Below, piece after piece: positions 10,727 to 45,279 of a stretch of DNA of 47,781 nt. The notes under the pieces were generated by a model, which was given only the letters and a program-made list of their open reading frames with translations, did no database searches and was not told the origin of the DNA. Numbering within the stretch: position 1 is the stretch's first letter; the number at the start of each line of letters is the position of its first letter. The stretch spans positions 1 through 47,781 of the forward strand of contig CAJOJD010000025.1 in assembly GCA_905234745.1 (NCBI GenBank), written 5' to 3'. The position numbers and the translations under genes were made by a program. This DNA is from an uncultured Bacteroidaceae bacterium (lineage in GTDB: Bacteria; Bacteroidota; Bacteroidia; Bacteroidales; Bacteroidaceae).

Positions 10727-11476
10727 TTACCAATCTTTTTCCAACGGTTTCTTAGGTTGAGCCTTCATCAGTTGTTCCTGGACTCTTTCCTGAACTTCTT
10801 TCTCGTCCTGCATGGCAGCCTCCAGTATCTGCTCGGCATTCTCCTGGGACATATCCTGCTGTTCCTGCTCCTGCTGCTCTTGTTGCTGCTGCTCTTGCTG
10901 ATCCTGTTGCTGTTGTTCCTGCTGTTGCTGTTCCTGTTCCTGCTGCTGGTCCTGTTGTTGCTCTTGCTGCTGTTGCTGCTGTTGCTGCTGTTGTTTTAGC
11001 ATTCGCTGGGCAAGTATCAGGTTGTAGCGGGTCTCATCATCCTGCGGATTGTTGCGGAGAGCCTGTTTGTAGGCATCGACAGCCTTGTCATATTGCTCAC
11101 ACATATGATATACCACACCTGTGTTGTGATATGTCTTGGCCAGTGCATCCTTGCATTTGTCAAGGTCCTTCTTTGAAGAGGACGGATCGTCCATCAGTTC
11201 TTTCTTCTGCCCTTCAAGGATATTGGCCATCTTGCGGTACTGATCGATCGCTTCATTGGGCTTCTGCTGTGCTGTATAGGCATTTCCAAGGTTGTAATAT
11301 GCCTCATTGAGTTCCGGATTCATGTCCAATGCCTTTAGGTAATTCTCCTCGGCTTTGATGAACAGGCTGTCCTGGAACATACGGTTGCCCTTGCGCACGA
11401 ACGAACGGTCCGACCGCTGTGCATATGCACCGGTTACGGATGCCGTCAACAGTAAGAACAACAATATCTTTCTCAT
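10727..11476 (-). CDS. batC: BatC, TPR protein with polyglutamine tract
   Basis: A 249-residue protein with a signal peptide (MRKILLFLLLTASVTGAYAQ), two or three TPR units (for example NEAYYNLGNAYTAQQKPNEA), a Gln/Glu/Asp-only stretch at residues 162-207 and a charged C-terminal segment with NAEQILEAAMQDEKE, which is the BatC signature end. Its ATG overlaps the batB stop (ATGA), indicating translational coupling. BatC is expected to act as a periplasmic or membrane scaffold with BatB and BatE. The glutamine run is coded by mixed CAG/CAA codons. Confidence 0.9.
   Translation of the reverse strand: MRKILLFLLLTASVTGAYAQRSDRSFVRKGNRMFQDSLFIKAEENYLKALDMNPELNEAYYNLGNAYTAQQKPNEAIDQYRKMANILEGQKKELMDDPSSSKKDLDKCKDALAKTYHNTGVVYHMCEQYDKAVDAYKQALRNNPQDDETRYNLILAQRMLKQQQQQQQQQQEQQQDQQQEQEQQQQEQQQQDQQEQQQQEQQEQEQQDMSQENAEQILEAAMQDEKEVQERVQEQLMKAQPKKPLEKDW
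10856..10993 (-). repeat. CAG/CAA triplet tract (46 Gln-rich residues in batC)
   Basis: On the plus strand this reads as CTG/TTG triplets with occasional GAA/GTC-type interruptions. The first eleven codons in the coding direction are all Gln. It is an imperfect trinucleotide repeat likely to vary in length while keeping frame. Confidence 0.9.
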
Positions 11477-31986: not shown

Positions 31987-33204
31987 TTATTTCCGTTTGG
32001 CAGAGTAACCACGCTCAGTTATAACACTTATTATGCTTTCATCCGATGCACTACCTTGTACTGATGCTATGCCCGATGCAAGATCAACAGTTACATCGGT
32101 CACACCTTCAACGCTCTTAATTGCGTTCTCTACGTTTGCGCGGCAGTGGTTGCACATCATGCCATCCACTTTGAATTCTCTCTTATCCATAGTTGTTTCC
32201 TTTTTAATTGTAAATCTCTTGATGAGTGCGTATATCAACAGCAATCCTAATACAACGCTGCAGATAACCTTGAATACAGCCGGTTGTTCATGACAGCATG
32301 CATGACTCTGCACAATACTCTGCGTAAACCATTCCATTGGCAGCAGATAGTCAATAATCAGGCCGAAACCTATCGCGCCCAATGTGATAGAAAGCAGATA
32401 TATCCACATCGTTTTGCGGCCCATAACCTTGCGTATAACCAGCATTGACGCCATGTTCGATGCAGGTCCGGCCATAAGCAGCACAAGTGCAGCACCGGGA
32501 GTTATGCCCTTGATCATCAGTGCTGCAGCAATGGGTATCGAGCCTGTGGCACAGACATACATAGGTATGGATATAGCCAGCACTACTGCCATACTTGCCA
32601 AAGGTGTACCGGCATATTTCAGGAAGAAATCATCGGGCACAAAAACGGTTATCAGGCCTGCTATTACAAGACCTATGATCAGCCATCGGCCTATATCCTG
32701 GATCATATCGACAAAGCCGTAGCGTAGGGCATCAAGCAATCTGGCACCAAAGCCTTTATGCGTAGTCTGTTCCGATGCACACTGACTGGAGCAGTTGTTT
32801 TCATCGGGCTCACGCTTAGTCAAAGCGTTCACCAACAGGCCGCCCAATAATCCTGTTACCAAGGCAGCCATAGGCCTCATTATTGCAAACGGAATACCAA
32901 GCAATGCCGCTGTGGCAAGAATGGAATCCAGGCCTGTCTGAGGAGTTGATATTAAGAACGATGTTGTGGCTCCGCGTGATGCACCCTCTTTGCGCAGCGA
33001 CATTGCTGTCGGTATCACACCGCATGAGCATAACGGCAGAGGAACGCCTATCAGAGCAGCCCATAGCACAGATCGGAAATCGGCCTTACCCAGATACCTG
33101 CGATATATCCGCGCCGGCACAAAGGCATGCAGAATACCAGCAAAGCCGAACCCCAGCAGCAGGTAGGGTGACATCTCATTTATCAGATTCCAAATCTCAT
33201 TCAT
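31987..33204 (-). CDS. Permease (SO_0444-type) with fused C-terminal HMA domain
   Basis: A 405-residue inner-membrane protein with about eight helices in two halves. The first half has the signature PLPLCSCGVIPTAMSLRKEG and the second MYVCATGSIPIAAALMIKG. A Cys/His-rich loop (SHACCHEQP) is followed by a complete heavy-metal-associated domain with DGMMCNHCRANVENAIKSVEGV. This is the SO_0444 copper/zinc efflux permease group, here with a built-in metal chaperone-like domain. I start at the second ATG (33204); an ATG six codons upstream is possible. An outward promoter in the repeat at 33410-33440 points at this gene. Confidence 0.85.
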   Translation of the reverse strand: MNEIWNLINEMSPYLLLGFGFAGILHAFVPARIYRRYLGKADFRSVLWAALIGVPLPLCSCGVIPTAMSLRKEGASRGATTSFLISTPQTGLDSILATAALLGIPFAIMRPMAALVTGLLGGLLVNALTKREPDENNCSSQCASEQTTHKGFGARLLDALRYGFVDMIQDIGRWLIIGLVIAGLITVFVPDDFFLKYAGTPLASMAVVLAISIPMYVCATGSIPIAAALMIKGITPGAALVLLMAGPASNMASMLVIRKVMGRKTMWIYLLSITLGAIGFGLIIDYLLPMEWFTQSIVQSHACCHEQPAVFKVICSVVLGLLLIYALIKRFTIKKETTMDKREFKVDGMMCNHCRANVENAIKSVEGVTDVTVDLASGIASVQGSASDESIISVITERGYSAKRK

Positions 33205-33288
33205 ACGTTTGTAAAGATACATCGGCAGACCGATATCTCAAAACGGCCTGCCGACATACTGACTACTATAGCAAAGTTTATGTGGTAT

Positions 33289-33383
33289 TTATTCCTTACA
33301 GATCTTGATGGAGTCAATGGCCATCAGCAGTGCCAATACATTGTCAGTGCCCAAAAGAGAATGATTCTGTTTTTCTTTTCCAT
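33289..33383 (-). pseudogene. Possible small-peptide gene remnant with frameshift
   Basis: From an ATG at 33383 the frame reads MEKKNRIILFWALTMYWHC and stops. In another frame the sequence LLGTDNVLALLMAIDSIK continues to a stop at 33289. One extra base in the A5 run after GAAAAG would join them to a 31-residue peptide. It lies just downstream of the left repeat's outward promoter. The 33205-33532 gap otherwise holds the left repeat and nothing else seen. Weak evidence; could be chance. Confidence 0.25.
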
Positions 33384-33404: not shown

Positions 33405-33518
33405 TGCCGCAAAAGTACTCCCCCCCAAATGCCTGCACAATCACTAAAAGTGATGATTTAGCACAAAAGGGCAAAAAGGGGACGGTTCTTTTTTTGCCCT
33501 TTTTGTACCTTTGCGGCA
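33405..33518. mobile_element. MITE-like element, left copy, with promoter boxes at both ends
   Basis: A 114-bp sequence with 14-bp terminal inverted repeats, TGCCGCAAAAGTAC and GTACCTTTGCGGCA (13 of 14 matching). Bases 33405-33514 match 34921-35030 in inverted orientation, 103 of 110 identical without gaps. Inside are a hairpin CAAAAGGGCAAAAA..TTTTTGCCCTTTTTG with the core GGGGACGGTTC, and ATCACTAAAAGTGAT. Each end carries a TAnnTTTG box directed outward: CAAAAGTA at 33410-33417 (leftward) and TACCTTTG at 33506-33513 (rightward, towards the DUF4250 gene). No target duplication or transposase was seen. Confidence 0.75.
33410..33440 (-). promoter_or_regulatory. Leftward promoter in left repeat, spacer with G7 run
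   Basis: Minus strand TTG (33440-33438), 20-base spacer, TACTTTTG (33417-33410). The spacer contains seven G in a row next to the -7 box, where the right copy has GGGTCGG. It would drive the permease-HMA gene whose start is about 200 bases further. Confidence 0.65.
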
Positions 33519-33532
33519 GCAAAAAGAAAAAC

Positions 33533-33730
33533 ATGGAATACCTGCCTAAAGATCCGGGAATATTGGTATCGGCTGTGAATATGCTGCTCAGAGATGAGGA
33601 GTTTGATACTTTGGAGTCGCTGTGCTTTCACTTCAACAAGGAGCCGGAAGAGATAAAAAGTTATCTGCTGGAACATGATTTTGTTTACGATGAAGAACAA
33701 AAGCAGTTCCGTCCCGTAGGATACAAATAA
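33533..33730 (+). CDS. DUF4250 small protein
   Basis: A 65-residue acidic protein, MEYLPKDPGILVSAVNMLLR..., with EELC-like core LESLCFHFNKEPEEIKSYL and an ending YDEEQKQF, matching the DUF4250 family as I remember it. Function unknown. The ATG at 33533 is chosen since a longer frame would translate the upstream repeat, and the TACCTTTG box at 33506 lies only 20 bases before this ATG. It converges with the hydrolase gene (3 bases apart). Confidence 0.8.
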   Translation: MEYLPKDPGILVSAVNMLLRDEEFDTLESLCFHFNKEPEEIKSYLLEHDFVYDEEQKQFRPVGYK

Positions 33731-33733
33731 GTA

Positions 33734-34414
33734 TTAGGAGTTTAAGAACTCCAGCACTGCCCGGTTGAATGCATCCGGACATTTGTTCGCGATGAAGTGA
33801 TTTCCTTTGATAAGCACTAGTTGTGAATCAGGTATGCTTTGAGCGATAAGACGGGTATGAGCATCCTTTATCATATCATTGGTGCCTGCAATGACAAGAG
33901 TCTTTGCCTTTATGGCCAATAATTCCGCAGGCAGGACATTAGGATCATTCACCATAAGCCCAAGCATTTCAGCATTCTGCTTGGCTTCAGGGCTTTTACG
34001 GGCAAACAAACTGGCAATCCTATAACCTATTTCAATCGGGATTTGTGTAGAAGGCTTTACACCTTTTGCATTAAGATTAGCACCGTTAAGAATAAGTCGG
34101 CTCACACGGTCAGGGTATTTGATTGCAAATATCATAGCAATGTTTCCGCCATCGGAGAAACCAAGTAGATGCGCTTTGTCTATGCCATGAGAATCCAGAA
34201 ATCCCAGCAAGTCATCGGCAAACTGACGTATGGTGAACGGAGCGTTACCTCGCGGCGTTTTTCCATGTCCGCGAGTATCCAGAGCATAAACATGATAATA
34301 TCGGGCAAATGCATCTATCTGTCCTTTGAAATAGTCACAGTTCTCACCGTTCCCGTGCAACAGAATCAACGATTCCCCTTGCCCCTTCTCAATGTAATAG
34401 TGCTCGATATCCAA
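33734..34414 (-). CDS. Alpha/beta-fold hydrolase
   Basis: A 226-residue cytosolic hydrolase: oxyanion-hole HGNGENCDYF, strand-helix YALDTRGHGKTPRG, nucleophile elbow LLGFSDGGNIA, acidic residue VIAGTNDMIKD and the catalytic His in IKGNHFIANKC. The family includes esterases, C-C hydrolases and thioesterases. It starts 8 bases after the cupin stop on the same strand, so the two form an operon probably driven from the inner end of the right repeat. Confidence 0.87.
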   Translation of the reverse strand: MDIEHYYIEKGQGESLILLHGNGENCDYFKGQIDAFARYYHVYALDTRGHGKTPRGNAPFTIRQFADDLLGFLDSHGIDKAHLLGFSDGGNIAMIFAIKYPDRVSRLILNGANLNAKGVKPSTQIPIEIGYRIASLFARKSPEAKQNAEMLGLMVNDPNVLPAELLAIKAKTLVIAGTNDMIKDAHTRLIAQSIPDSQLVLIKGNHFIANKCPDAFNRAVLEFLNS

Positions 34415-34422
34415 TTATGCTA

Positions 34423-34896
34423 TCATTCTAATGGTATTTCAGGATGTTGTACAGCCAGAGGCATATCCTCCTGAGAGAGGTAGAACATATAAAGTATGAC
34501 CGGCTTGTCTCCGCGGTTCTCACCATGATGAATGGTTCCTACCATTTCAACTACGGCCTCACCTTCATGAACGGTCTTTTCTTTTCCATCCAGACCGATG
34601 ATTGTAAGCTCTCCCTGCATCAAAACTCCGTAATTCATTACCGGATGATGATGCCAGCCCAGTTTCTGGCCAACAGGAAACTCGTATTTTACTGCAACAA
34701 GTTCCGGACGGCCCTCCAGATAATCCGGAAGTTCAACACCGTCCCAGCTTTGGGATGTGCGTATAAGCTCTGTGGATACAACTTGCTGAGGCTGTTCTGA
34801 ATTGTTGGCATTACCATTCTTGCAACTTGTCAATAGAGCTGAGCCGCATATCACAGCAGCTATAATAACGACTTGGGTGAATCTCTTAATTCTCAT
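34423..34896 (-). CDS. Cupin-domain lipoprotein
   Basis: A 157-residue protein with a lipoprotein signal (lipobox LLTSC, Cys at about residue 25) and a cupin domain: the metal-binding GWHHHPVMNYGVLMQGE and second motif HGENRGDKPVILY. Cupins of this type are often dioxygenases or isomerases, but here the function is unknown. The ATG at 34896 is chosen because upstream in-frame codons come from the repeat and the signal peptide begins MRIKRFTQ. A TATCTTTG box on the minus strand (34929-34922) lies 26 bases before the start. Confidence 0.82.
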   Translation of the reverse strand: MRIKRFTQVVIIAAVICGSALLTSCKNGNANNSEQPQQVVSTELIRTSQSWDGVELPDYLEGRPELVAVKYEFPVGQKLGWHHHPVMNYGVLMQGELTIIGLDGKEKTVHEGEAVVEMVGTIHHGENRGDKPVILYMFYLSQEDMPLAVQHPEIPLE

Positions 34897-34920
34897 ATAG
34901 TCCTTTAATTTGAGTTGCTT

Positions 34921-35030
34921 GCAAAGATACAAAAAGGGCAAAAAAAGAACCGTCCCCTTTTTGCCCTTTTGTGTCAAATCCTCATTTTTAGTGATTGTGC
35001 AGGCATTTGGGTCGGAGTACTTTTGCGGCA
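34921..35030. mobile_element. MITE-like element, right copy, inverted
   Basis: The inverted partner of the left copy (103 of 110 bases identical). Its right terminus GTACTTTTGCGGCA is intact; the left terminus is degenerate (GCAAAGATAC, without the TGCC start). It bears an inward box TATCTTTG for the cupin operon and an outward promoter for the following gene. Together the copies bracket 1,406 bases with three genes. Confidence 0.75.
34995..35025 (+). promoter_or_regulatory. Rightward promoter in right repeat, TTG-N20-TACTTTTG
   Basis: TTG at 34995-34997, a 20-base spacer and TACTTTTG at 35018-35025. The next gene starts 29 bases downstream, so the element provides its promoter. Confidence 0.75.
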
Positions 35031-35053: not shown

Positions 35054-35620
35054 ATGAAACCTGTATTCAAAGTTTTGCTAATGGCAATTGCCTATCTTGT
35101 CGCATTTGTATTGGGTTCTTTAACCGGATTGATTCACCCTATGTGCTATGCCTATGTCGGCGCGCTGCTGCCGTTTCTGTTTGCATTCATCTATCTCTAC
35201 ACATCATCATTTATGCGTAGTTTCGGCGTTGCAACCGTGCTGAACGGAATCCTTATGCTCCTTCTCCTAATTGCCGGAGAGGCCGATTGGGCACTAGTTG
35301 TGGGCTTTATCATTCTTTCGGCACTTTCTGAGACCATCAGATGCCGTCAGGGATATGACACAATCAAAGGTATCCGCCTGAGTTTCCTACCCTTCGCCTA
35401 CTCTTTCTTTGCCTACACAGCTCACTGGTGGACCGATACCCAAGGCTCACTTGCTGCAGCCGTTGAGGAGATGCCAGCAGGTTATGACCAACTGATGATT
35501 CCTGTAATTGAAAATATTCCCGTTCTGATCATTGTGCTGATCATCACCCTACCCGTTGCCATGCTGGCAATAAGGCTTGCAGAACGTTCAATGAAAAAGC
35601 AGATTGAATCGTTCAAATAA
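35054..35620 (+). CDS. MptD-family ECF transporter S component (putative)
   Basis: A 188-residue membrane protein of five or six helices (VLLMAIAYLVAFVLGSLTGL, YVGALLPFLFAFIYLYT, and others to the end), matching the MptD/Trep_Strep family of substrate-binding components of energy-coupling-factor transporters. Substrate unknown. No T or A component genes are near, so it would share a common energising module. Its promoter lies in the MITE-like repeat. It ends at a strong terminator. Confidence 0.7.
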   Translation: MKPVFKVLLMAIAYLVAFVLGSLTGLIHPMCYAYVGALLPFLFAFIYLYTSSFMRSFGVATVLNGILMLLLLIAGEADWALVVGFIILSALSETIRCRQGYDTIKGIRLSFLPFAYSFFAYTAHWWTDTQGSLAAAVEEMPAGYDQLMIPVIENIPVLIIVLIITLPVAMLAIRLAERSMKKQIESFK

Positions 35621-43403: not shown

Positions 43404-43943
43404 ATGAGAAAGTTAATCGCATTTATCATGCTGTTTACGGCTGTAGCGGCTGTATCGGCACAGGACAACGTCTATTCTTTCAAGGTAAAGAATGATAAGG
43501 GTGAAGAGGTAAGTCTGGAGCAGTATAAAGGAAAGGTGCTGCTGATTGTAAATACCGCCACCCGTTGCGGATTTACCCCGCAGTACAAGGATCTGGAGGA
43601 GATTTATGAGAAGTATAACAAGCAGGGATTCGAGATTCTGGATTTCCCCTGCAACCAGTTTGGTCAGCAGGCACCCGGTACCATTGCTGAGATCAAGGAG
43701 TTCTGCTCAACCAACTATCATGTCACGTTCACCCAGTTTGACAAGATTGAGGTAAACGGAGATAACGAGATTCCTCTCTACACATGGCTCAAGGCCAATG
43801 CCGAGAACAAGAACAACATCCGCTGGAACTTCACTAAGTTCCTTATCTCAACTGATGGCAAAGTGATACAACGCTTTGAATCCGGCGACAAGATGACCGA
43901 TGTCGAGGATGCCGTCGCTCAAGCCCTCAAGGCTGAAAAATAA
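43404..43943 (+). CDS. Periplasmic glutathione peroxidase (cysteine type)
   Basis: A 179-residue thiol peroxidase. Signal peptide MRKLIAFIMLFTAVAAVSAQ places it in the periplasm. The peroxidatic Cys is in NTATRCGFTPQY, followed by DFPCNQFGQQ and the catalytic Trp in RWNFTKFLIS. There is no selenocysteine. As Bacteroidales make little glutathione, reduction is presumably through thioredoxin-like proteins (inference). Related oxygen-stress genes (Bat operon) are elsewhere in the window. Confidence 0.93.
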   Translation: MRKLIAFIMLFTAVAAVSAQDNVYSFKVKNDKGEEVSLEQYKGKVLLIVNTATRCGFTPQYKDLEEIYEKYNKQGFEILDFPCNQFGQQAPGTIAEIKEFCSTNYHVTFTQFDKIEVNGDNEIPLYTWLKANAENKNNIRWNFTKFLISTDGKVIQRFESGDKMTDVEDAVAQALKAEK

Positions 43944-43982
43944 AAAAAGGCCCATTGGGGTCAGACCCCAATGGGCTTTTTT
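43943..43982. terminator. GGGGTCAGACCCC palindrome, copy 3, as bidirectional terminator
   Basis: AAAAAAAGGCCCATTGGGGTC, central A, GACCCCAATGGGCTTTTTT: 13 GC-rich pairs, extended by A/T runs. It separates convergent peroxidase and YeiH genes. The core ATTGGGGTCAGACCCCAAT is identical to copy 1 at 25732-25750. Confidence 0.92.
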
Positions 43983-43983
43983 A

Positions 43984-45279
43984 TCAGTTCTTTATTACTC
44001 CGAACAGGATTCCTGCAACCAACAGAGTGAACAGGATGTTGAAGCCCTGAGCTGTAAGGAATGCCTTGAGTGACTGATTGTTCTCCTTTGCGAATATCTG
44101 CTTGAAGTTGGTTTCAAGGCCGATGCATACGAATGCGATTGAGAAGAATATGTTCTGGAAGTTCTTGGCCAGGCTCTTGTATGCAATGCCATCGGCACTC
44201 TTTCCGGCAAAGAATATGCTGAACACGATTGAAGCAATCACCATACCTACCACGAACTTGGGGAAGCGCTCCCAAATAACCTTACCGGAAGTCTTCTCAA
44301 CACCCTGAGTACCACGGAAAGACCAGTACAGCGAGATAAAGAATGCAGCCACACCAATCAGAACGTTCTGTGAAGCCTTTACGATAACTGCAGTCTGCCC
44401 TGCCTCATCACCCAAAATTCCGCCCGATGCAGCTACAGCAGCGGTTGTATCGATGGTACCACCGATCCATGCACCGGCCACTTGAGCCTGAGCCAGTTCA
44501 TTTCCAGGGAAGAACAGCGGCAGCAGCCAGTTGCAGAGCAGCGGCATGAGGTAAAGCATGGGGATTGCTACCACCATAACAAGTGAGATCACGTATGACA
44601 GCTTCTTCTGGTCACCCTTGATTGTACCGCAGGTAGCAATGGCTGCTGATACACCGCAGATACTTACTGAGCTTGCCAGCATGGTAGCCATTTCATCGTC
44701 CACCTTAAACACCTTACGTGAAATCCAGAAACCAAAGTACCATACGCACAGAACCACTATCAGGGCCTGTGCAAGACCGTATGCGCCGCTCTTAAGCACT
44801 TCCTGGTAAAGGACAGTAGCACCAAGGCAGACAATACCGATCTTGATATAGAATTCACTCTGGATGGCCGGTTTGAGCCAATCGGGAATCTTAAAGAAAT
44901 TACTGATTATTAGGCCAAGAATTACTGCAAACAGTACTGCTTCAAGACCATACTTCTTGCAGAAAGGAATTGTAGCCAGAGCCAATGATACCACTGTCAG
45001 CAGACATATCACAAGAAACGACAGGAATATACCTTTGAACGGTTTGCCAGTTAGAGCCGATGACAAATAAAGCAGAGCCAGCACGAACACAAAGATATAT
45101 ACTGCGCCCAGCCATCCCTGAAGGCTACCCAGCGCACTTGCCGACTGACTGGCCAGAATACCCGGAATCTTGAAACTGTTCATCACATTAGGAAACAGCA
45201 CTGACAGAGCCAGCACAATGAATCCCAGAACGACTACGATCCACTCGTCGTTCACCAAAGCTTTTCTTGTATTACTCAT
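43984..45279 (-). CDS. YeiH-family putative sulfate exporter
   Basis: A 431-residue inner-membrane protein with about eleven helices. Characteristic segments are EFYIKIGIVCLGATVLYQEV, SSVSICGVSAAIATCGTIKG and GAWIGGTIDTTAAVAASGG. Members of UPF0324/YeiH are predicted sulfate or sulfonate exporters. The start at 45279 (MSNTRKALVNDEW) is chosen; an open frame continues 62 codons upstream but crosses the promoter of the divergent TonB gene and has no family match. Its promoter overlaps that of the receptor gene. Confidence 0.88.
   Translation of the reverse strand: MSNTRKALVNDEWIVVVLGFIVLALSVLFPNVMNSFKIPGILASQSASALGSLQGWLGAVYIFVFVLALLYLSSALTGKPFKGIFLSFLVICLLTVVSLALATIPFCKKYGLEAVLFAVILGLIISNFFKIPDWLKPAIQSEFYIKIGIVCLGATVLYQEVLKSGAYGLAQALIVVLCVWYFGFWISRKVFKVDDEMATMLASSVSICGVSAAIATCGTIKGDQKKLSYVISLVMVVAIPMLYLMPLLCNWLLPLFFPGNELAQAQVAGAWIGGTIDTTAAVAASGGILGDEAGQTAVIVKASQNVLIGVAAFFISLYWSFRGTQGVEKTSGKVIWERFPKFVVGMVIASIVFSIFFAGKSADGIAYKSLAKNFQNIFFSIAFVCIGLETNFKQIFAKENNQSLKAFLTAQGFNILFTLLVAGILFGVIKN

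Follow-up and report, generated by a model that had tools for sequence, protein, structure and literature searches.

Analysis of a 47,781-nt window, which is the whole of one contig (C25) of a 2.2-Mb assembly about 80% complete, revealed that a pair of inverted 110-bp repeats, judged from comparison with related loci, is a composite of known parts with a promoter duplication, and not a dispersed mobile cassette. The pair probably arose in an old inversion, in which the breakpoint region was duplicated and a Cu/Zn efflux permease gene came to lie behind a copy of the promoter of a putative ECF S-component gene (gene 35054, named after its first position; Table 1). If so, a short REP family, combined with an old rearrangement, can mimic a mobile promoter cassette, and the locus would be an example, common to two species, of a gene acquiring a copy of its neighbour's promoter.

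The sequence-only reading had described an ungapped inverted match of 110 bp between 33405-33514 and 34921-35030, and the match was reproduced at 94% identity, with 1406 nt between the two arms, which enclose the DUF4250, alpha/beta hydrolase and cupin genes. It was the one inverted pair of at least 40 nt found in the window. Its ungapped score of 89 was far above chance, since 20 of 20 first-order Markov windows gave scores of only 14-20. Numbered from the side of gene 35054, the arm had a tripartite structure: positions 1-55 carried the promoter of gene 35054 and its dyad TCAYTTTTAGTGA, which covered the TTG of the promoter, positions 61-99 were an imperfect 39-nt palindrome forming the REP hairpin, and positions 100-110 contained the -7 box for the gene on the module side. 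The left-arm end TTTTTGTACCTTTGC was the promoter of the DUF4250 gene, which was also found in L058 and, with changes, in L052, L053 and L057, and the right-arm end TATCTTTG was the cupin promoter, as in L057.

All four outward TAnnTTTG boxes reported earlier were recovered, and one TTG-N20-TACTTTTG promoter per copy was read from the sequence. Both arms showed the features of a Bacteroidota sigma promoter (a -33 TTTG-like element and a -7 TAnnTTTG box about 20 nt apart), and a -33 TTTG / -7 TANNTTTGY rule is given for Bacteroidales in the relevant part of one paper (PMC8748976). By these sequence features, the outward promoters are real. TAnnTTTG occurred 32 times in the window against 25.6 expected, and 10 of 100 shuffles were as high, so the motif itself showed no clear enrichment. 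Three of the four boxes were located 19-28 nt before the ATG of the genes starting at 33533 (+), 34896 (-) and 35054 (+), and the fourth was located 187 nt ahead of the permease start at 33222 (-).

Table 1. Coordinates of genes, repeat arms, promoter boxes, dyads and hairpins at the locus
Feature	Position	Strand	Remarks
SO_0444-family Cu/Zn efflux permease with HMA domain	31987..33222	-	NF033936 over cut-off
DUF4250 protein, 65 aa	33533..33730	+	PF14056
Alpha/beta hydrolase	33734..34414	-	PF00561; TTG start as listed
Cupin	34423..34896	-	PF07883; counted from ATG at 34896
Trep_Strep / MptD-like putative ECF S-component	35054..35620	+	PF09605 over, TIGR02185 below cut-off
Arm L (left copy)	33405..33514	-	gene-35054-type promoter directed left at the permease
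Arm R (right copy)	34921..35030	+	native promoter region of gene 35054
-7 box TACTTTTG facing the permease	33410..33417	-	TTG 20 nt upstream
-7 box TACTTTTG of gene 35054	35018..35025	+	TTG 20 nt upstream
Native -7 box of the DUF4250 gene	33506..33513	+	
Native -7 box of the cupin gene	34922..34929	-	
Dyad TCACTAAAAGTGA, arm L	33441..33453		overlaps the -33 region
Dyad TCATTTTTAGTGA, arm R	34982..34994		one base short of perfect
REP hairpin, arm L (AAAAGGGCAAAAAGGGGACGGTTCTTTTTTTGCCCTTTT)	33465..33503	+	
REP hairpin, arm R, inverted	34932..34970	-	

A search of the whole assembly showed that only the inner part of the repeat was multicopy. Two full-length copies were listed, namely the two arms, and the remaining 49 of the 51 matches spanned at most 60 nt and were centred on the REP part. 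The earlier proposal of a mobile promoter cassette was contradicted, because the 110-bp unit was not dispersed and its promoter part was confined to orthologues of gene 35054, in 8 of the 37 genus genomes; the sole exception was the second copy in the window's own genome (G000) and in G008. The related idea of a multicopy, probably mobile element was borne out for the 39-nt REP hairpin but not for the 110-bp unit.

The 39-nt palindrome, centred on GGGGACGGTTC, folded as a DNA hairpin (z of -2.54 on one strand of arm L and -3.05 on the other). Its 51 matches represented 45 distinct sites in the assembly, both arms counted, since six were second-strand matches of the same palindrome. All of the 19 close inverted pairs were arranged plus-then-minus, and the 39 exact REP cores in the genome were balanced between the strands (19/20), compared with none for the reversed control. 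Among the 21 other sites classified, 18 were intergenic (17 convergent or tandem and one divergent), two were within a called ORF and one was at a contig edge. The window hairpin thus belonged to a short multicopy palindrome that was mostly intergenic and often present in close inverted pairs. The core occurred in 21 of the 37 genus genomes and, among 394 genomes sampled elsewhere in the phylum, in just one, so it was essentially a genus feature in that sample. No earlier description of the family was found in the open-licence literature searched. A further RAYT-type hairpin, of the GGGGTCAGACCCC type, was observed between two genes at 43942-43984 of the window.

To the REP family corresponded a set of RAYT-like transposases in the same genus. 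PF01797 scored over its cut-off in 23 of the 37 genus genomes, including three genes of the window's own genome, whose matches to NF047646 (REP_Tyr_transpos) were below the cut-off of that model. Of 42 PF01797 matches overall, 39 loci were examined, and the remaining three did not reach the cut-off of the family. An open frame with the two catalytic motifs was obtained from 36 of the 39, two of these 36 being cut by a contig end. Matching inverted flanks with a score of at least 17 were found for 30 of these 36 genes, compared with 2 of 161 control genes similar in size, and among the six genes below this score, L135 had window-type REPs on both sides and L155 on one side. The flanks were of the types GGGGACGGTTC, GGGGTCAG/GGGGCCTGACC, GGGGTCGTTTC, GGGGACAGGTC and GGGGACTGTCC. 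When labelled by hand on the transposase tree, the hairpin types were clustered, requiring 15 changes compared with a shuffled mean of 22.0 (as low in 0 of 200). Transposase lineages carry their own hairpin types. The ACGGTTC type alone needed 5 changes (10.9 when shuffled), so it did not form one clade.

The closest connection to the window was provided by a 35-nt hairpin, AGGGGCACAAAGGGGACGGTTCTTTTTGTGCCCCT, which flanked the transposase genes L146, L202 and L203 on both sides and was found unchanged at the orthologous 35054 locus in L054, L057 and L058. The changes that set the window REP copies apart from it preserve the pairing of the stem. The L146, L202 and L203 proteins formed the sister group (95/94) of L033, the nearest RAYT of the window's own genome. 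The same hairpin therefore flanked a Y1 transposase gene in relatives but not the own-genome gene L033, which had no matching flanks; of the other two own-genome genes, L031 was cut by a contig end and L032 had another hairpin. By these comparisons, the window REP is a member of a RAYT-linked multicopy family of the genus.

Seven named loci (L052-L058), from horse faeces, yak reticulum, RUG isolates, which were presumably from the rumen, and UBA1179, contained an orthologue sharing at least 90% identity with gene 35054. Positions 1-55 were located directly before the gene in all seven. Comparison of the locus with these relatives showed that the 35054-type promoter was single in six of the eight orthologous loci and that two inverted copies were present in G000 and G008 only; the exact dyad pattern occurred in 8 of the 37 genus genomes, once in six of them and twice in G000 and G008 only. 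The extra copy in both genomes was inverted, faced the same permease and had flanking bases beyond the copy in common (CGGCACGAATT...), so it predates the species split or was exchanged between the two. In a third species (L056) the permease start region was related but did not have the 35054-type promoter. Reading by eye, a REP-family hairpin was located just upstream of the 35054 promoter in five of the eight loci (the window, L052, L054, L057 and L058), of which the automatic hairpin scan reported only the window and L054; L056 had a different RAYT-type hairpin at this place, and L053 and L055 had none. A GGGGACAGTCCCC / GGGGACTGTCCCC hairpin was also observed at or just past the stop codon of 35054 in four relatives (L053 8588-8618, L054 8567-8613, L055 915-961 and L058 8564-8608), with none reported there in the window, and similar motifs flanked the L159 and L200 transposases.

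The order of the genes at the locus varied among the species. DUF4250 was head-to-head with 35054 in L052, L054 and L055 and away from it in the other five of the eight loci, where its neighbour was either DUF4491 (L056, L057 and L058) or the permease (the window and L053). Other genes next to 35054 also differed among species. Between the arms of L053, DUF4250 was accompanied by two genes unrelated to those of the window. The order in arm L, with the DUF4250 promoter followed by the REP and the 35054 promoter, matched that of L052, and the bases between the REP and the promoter beside DUF4250 (TGTGCTAAATC) were the same in arm L and L052.

Because the gene order around 35054 varied among species and the junction of DUF4250, REP and 35054 promoter survived as arm L, an old inversion was favoured. 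The rearrangement would date from the ancestor shared by this species and RUG476 (L053). It would have reversed the segment holding DUF4250 and duplicated the junction, so that one copy was found at each end of the segment, by a staggered-break or template-switch inversion or by repair initiated at the REP. DUF4250 would have been carried with the junction towards the permease, a second copy of the junction staying with 35054, and the permease and 35054 would each have ended up with the same promoter and dyad. The displaced promoter copy, now ahead of the permease, would be expected to drive it. The REP would once have arrived by means of a RAYT-type transposase, and the function of the promoter would not need it. 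Eukaryotic staggered-break inversions leave the breakpoint region duplicated and inverted on both sides of the inverted segment; unlike these, the present case is bacterial, involves 110 bp and is inferred. The polarity of the inversion was unrooted, as no match to DUF4250 was obtained in any of the 73 loci that were more distant, and the history needs more than one step because DUF4250 was found beside DUF4491 without a promoter copy in L056, L057 and L058. Further observations stood against this reading. The arm similarities between the window and G008 did not sort cleanly: of 56 bases, 51 were identical between the two window arms, 49 between the right window arm and the left G008 arm, 45 between the left window arm and either G008 arm, and 43 between the two right arms, which would allow later conversion, flipping or exchange between arms as well. 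In addition, the window REP was of the subtype (GGGCAAA..TTTGCCC) seen in most copies of the own genome and differed in subtype from the REP at the orthologous site of L052. The missing flanks of L033, the lack of hairpin enrichment at species-specific junctions and a TGA within the G036 match to gene 35054, both described below, also count against it.

Alternatively, recombination between the arms, by RecA or an unlinked recombinase, might flip the 1.4-kb module within the population and swap the neighbours of genes and promoters. The long identical blocks in the inverted arms, the two placements of DUF4250 among the orthologous loci (beside 35054 or away from it) and the arm variants that look partly exchanged between the own genome and G008 are consistent with such a switch. 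However, a flip would have little effect, given that the promoters at all four ends resemble one another, and the gene content between the arms differed even in L053, the sole other species with both arms. Searches for two recombinase families in the assembly (about 80% complete) gave no match to PF00239 and three to PF00589, which were located on contigs C5, C7 and C9 and not on C25, whereas the invertible resistance promoters of Bacteroidales described in the part of PMC8748976 considered here adjoin an invertase gene. An invertible switch is unlikely. It is distinctly improbable that a RAYT-type transposase moved the module as a composite unit with the two REPs as its ends. Their plus-then-minus arrangement is that of all 19 close pairs, and in L057 the same three genes were seen by eye between a plus and a minus REP, but the promoter part of the arms had no third copy in the assembly, G008 had both promoter copies without REPs, and the hairpins were not enriched at unique junctions. 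RAYTs are not known to carry genes.

The MITE reading takes the repeat for a non-autonomous DNA transposon that is dispersed, bounded by 14-bp terminal inverted repeats (TIRs) and equipped with outward promoters. It was favoured by these promoters and by the left copy, in which 13 of the 14 terminal bases were matched by eye. The right copy had no such TIR, and the last four bases of the left one (33515-33518) fell outside the repeated arm. What had been taken for a TIR was the two -7 regions of native promoters facing apart, which were kept in relatives. The whole unit occurred as two copies, both at this locus, with no trace of dispersed full copies in the assembly, and among the matches listed in 61 genomes, those covering positions 1-50 were located at 35054 orthologues, with the second copy in G000 and G008 as the exception. 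The MITE was therefore rejected for the 110-bp unit and is hardly credible. Convergence without a notable rearrangement, in which the same regulator and sigma factor shaped two promoters and a REP entered both, would account for the promoter boxes and dyad being the best-conserved parts. It is very improbable, since 51 of 56 bases agreed including the motif-free spacer, the REP and its edges agreed too, and the permease of the third species (L056) was without the motif.

Under the inversion history, the permease and gene 35054, which are divergent and 1.8 kb apart in the window, would share a regulatory signal, as each has the same promoter and dyad. In 5 of 80 loci (L074, L076, L086, L110 and L127), a permease match began 46-98 nt past a relative of gene 35054 on the same strand, and a sixth locus (L092) had a short partial match. 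In L103, L104 and L120 the permease was downstream of the 35054 relative on the opposite strand. Within the genus, the two matches were 65 nt apart on one strand in G036, where the relative of gene 35054 had a TGA inside the match. The same-strand neighbours suggest that the two genes may form a shared regulon in some lineages, and we infer that the left copy would drive the permease in step with gene 35054. Outside the genus, a loose dyad (AAATCnC..GGnGATTT/G) was found upstream of 35054 relatives in 20 of 71 Bacteroidales regions (L059-L131), compared with a mean of 0.11 and a maximum of 1 in shuffled regions. This pattern was written after reading 20 upstream regions (L059-L078); 13 of the matches were among these 20 and 7 among the 51 unread. 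It matched neither the window's own dyad nor any of the seven genus loci, so it is at most a hint of a conserved operator.

Two features were observed between the left arm and the permease. On the minus strand at 33289-33383, an apparent short frame started with ATG at 33383 and stopped after 19 codons, followed by a run in another frame ending in ..SIKICKE, of which G008 retained just the last part. Read by eye, this stretch may be what is left of a small leader gene that was broken. A dyad, CGGCAG..CTGCCG, was located right before the permease start at 33223-33253 and was kept with changes in G008 and G010; it is a candidate operator or leader hairpin. The only candidate from a separate search for known RNA elements was a SAM-II match, which at 21 bits fell short of the gathering score of 44 (E 0.73) and was taken as chance.

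A broader role of the hairpins was also considered. RAYT-type hairpins were not significantly more frequent at junctions specific to one species (7 of 33) than at shared ones (6 of 34; p = 0.77) in a comparison in which mechanical gene calling dropped some small genes, including the DUF4250 gene of the window, and gaps below 30 nt were excluded, and REPs are therefore not claimed as a cause of the shuffling. It seems doubtful that RAYT-type hairpins in divergent promoters serve as a shuffling site that passes a promoter and its regulator site between genes, with a module that may still flip. If they did, hairpin-mediated inversion or repair-driven copying would keep separated genes co-regulated by inverted twin promoters, the pair here being the Cu/Zn efflux permease and the putative ECF S-component.

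The arrangement was compared with known systems. In the part of the work used here, TIRtrons, or RAYT-REPtrons, are IS200-like tyrosine transposase genes with inverted hairpins on both sides; some of the repeats make up families found as dimers or clusters, and those at the flanks have the motif GGGGWSAS in common (Di Nocera et al. 2013, PMC3733652). Several flanking hairpins of the genus (GGGGTCAG, GGGGACAG) fitted this motif, and with hairpins on both flanks, the GGGG-W-S motif and dimers, the genus pairs resembled TIRtrons as described there more than GTAG REPs. The canonical GTAG/GTGG foot was not present on the window hairpins when read from the sequence, so they were likened to TIRtrons. 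In contrast to that description, the window hairpin GGGGACGG was one base off GGGGWSAS, the host was an uncultured Bacteroidales genus, and the window repeat was located in divergent promoter regions.

The transposases themselves had NHVH and YIH-NP type motifs, similar to those of TnpA_Y1 subclasses 2.1 and 2.6 in the sections consulted of one survey (PMC6006769). There, FQ replaces WQ in part of subclass 2.1, for which no REP-like sequences were found, and subclass 2.6 is mainly from Bacteroidetes and has atypical hairpins. The genus genes, mostly 263-289 aa with NHVH, FQ and YIHQNP, resembled subclass 2.1, membership being judged by motif and by eye, but differed from it in having matching hairpins, none being reported for 2.1 in those sections. 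The present results thus point to matching hairpins for Bacteroidales Y1 transposases that resemble a subclass for which that survey, in the part used, reported none. The invertible promoters of Bacteroidales (PMC8748976, in part) were similar to the window in having inverted repeats and -33 TTTG / -7 TANNTTTGY promoters. However, the promoter there is located between the inverted repeats beside an invertase gene, whereas here it was inside the repeats, on a contig without a match to the two recombinase families searched. Elsewhere in the window, a CTG/TTG-rich low-complexity tract with short-period repeats was observed at 10832-11008.
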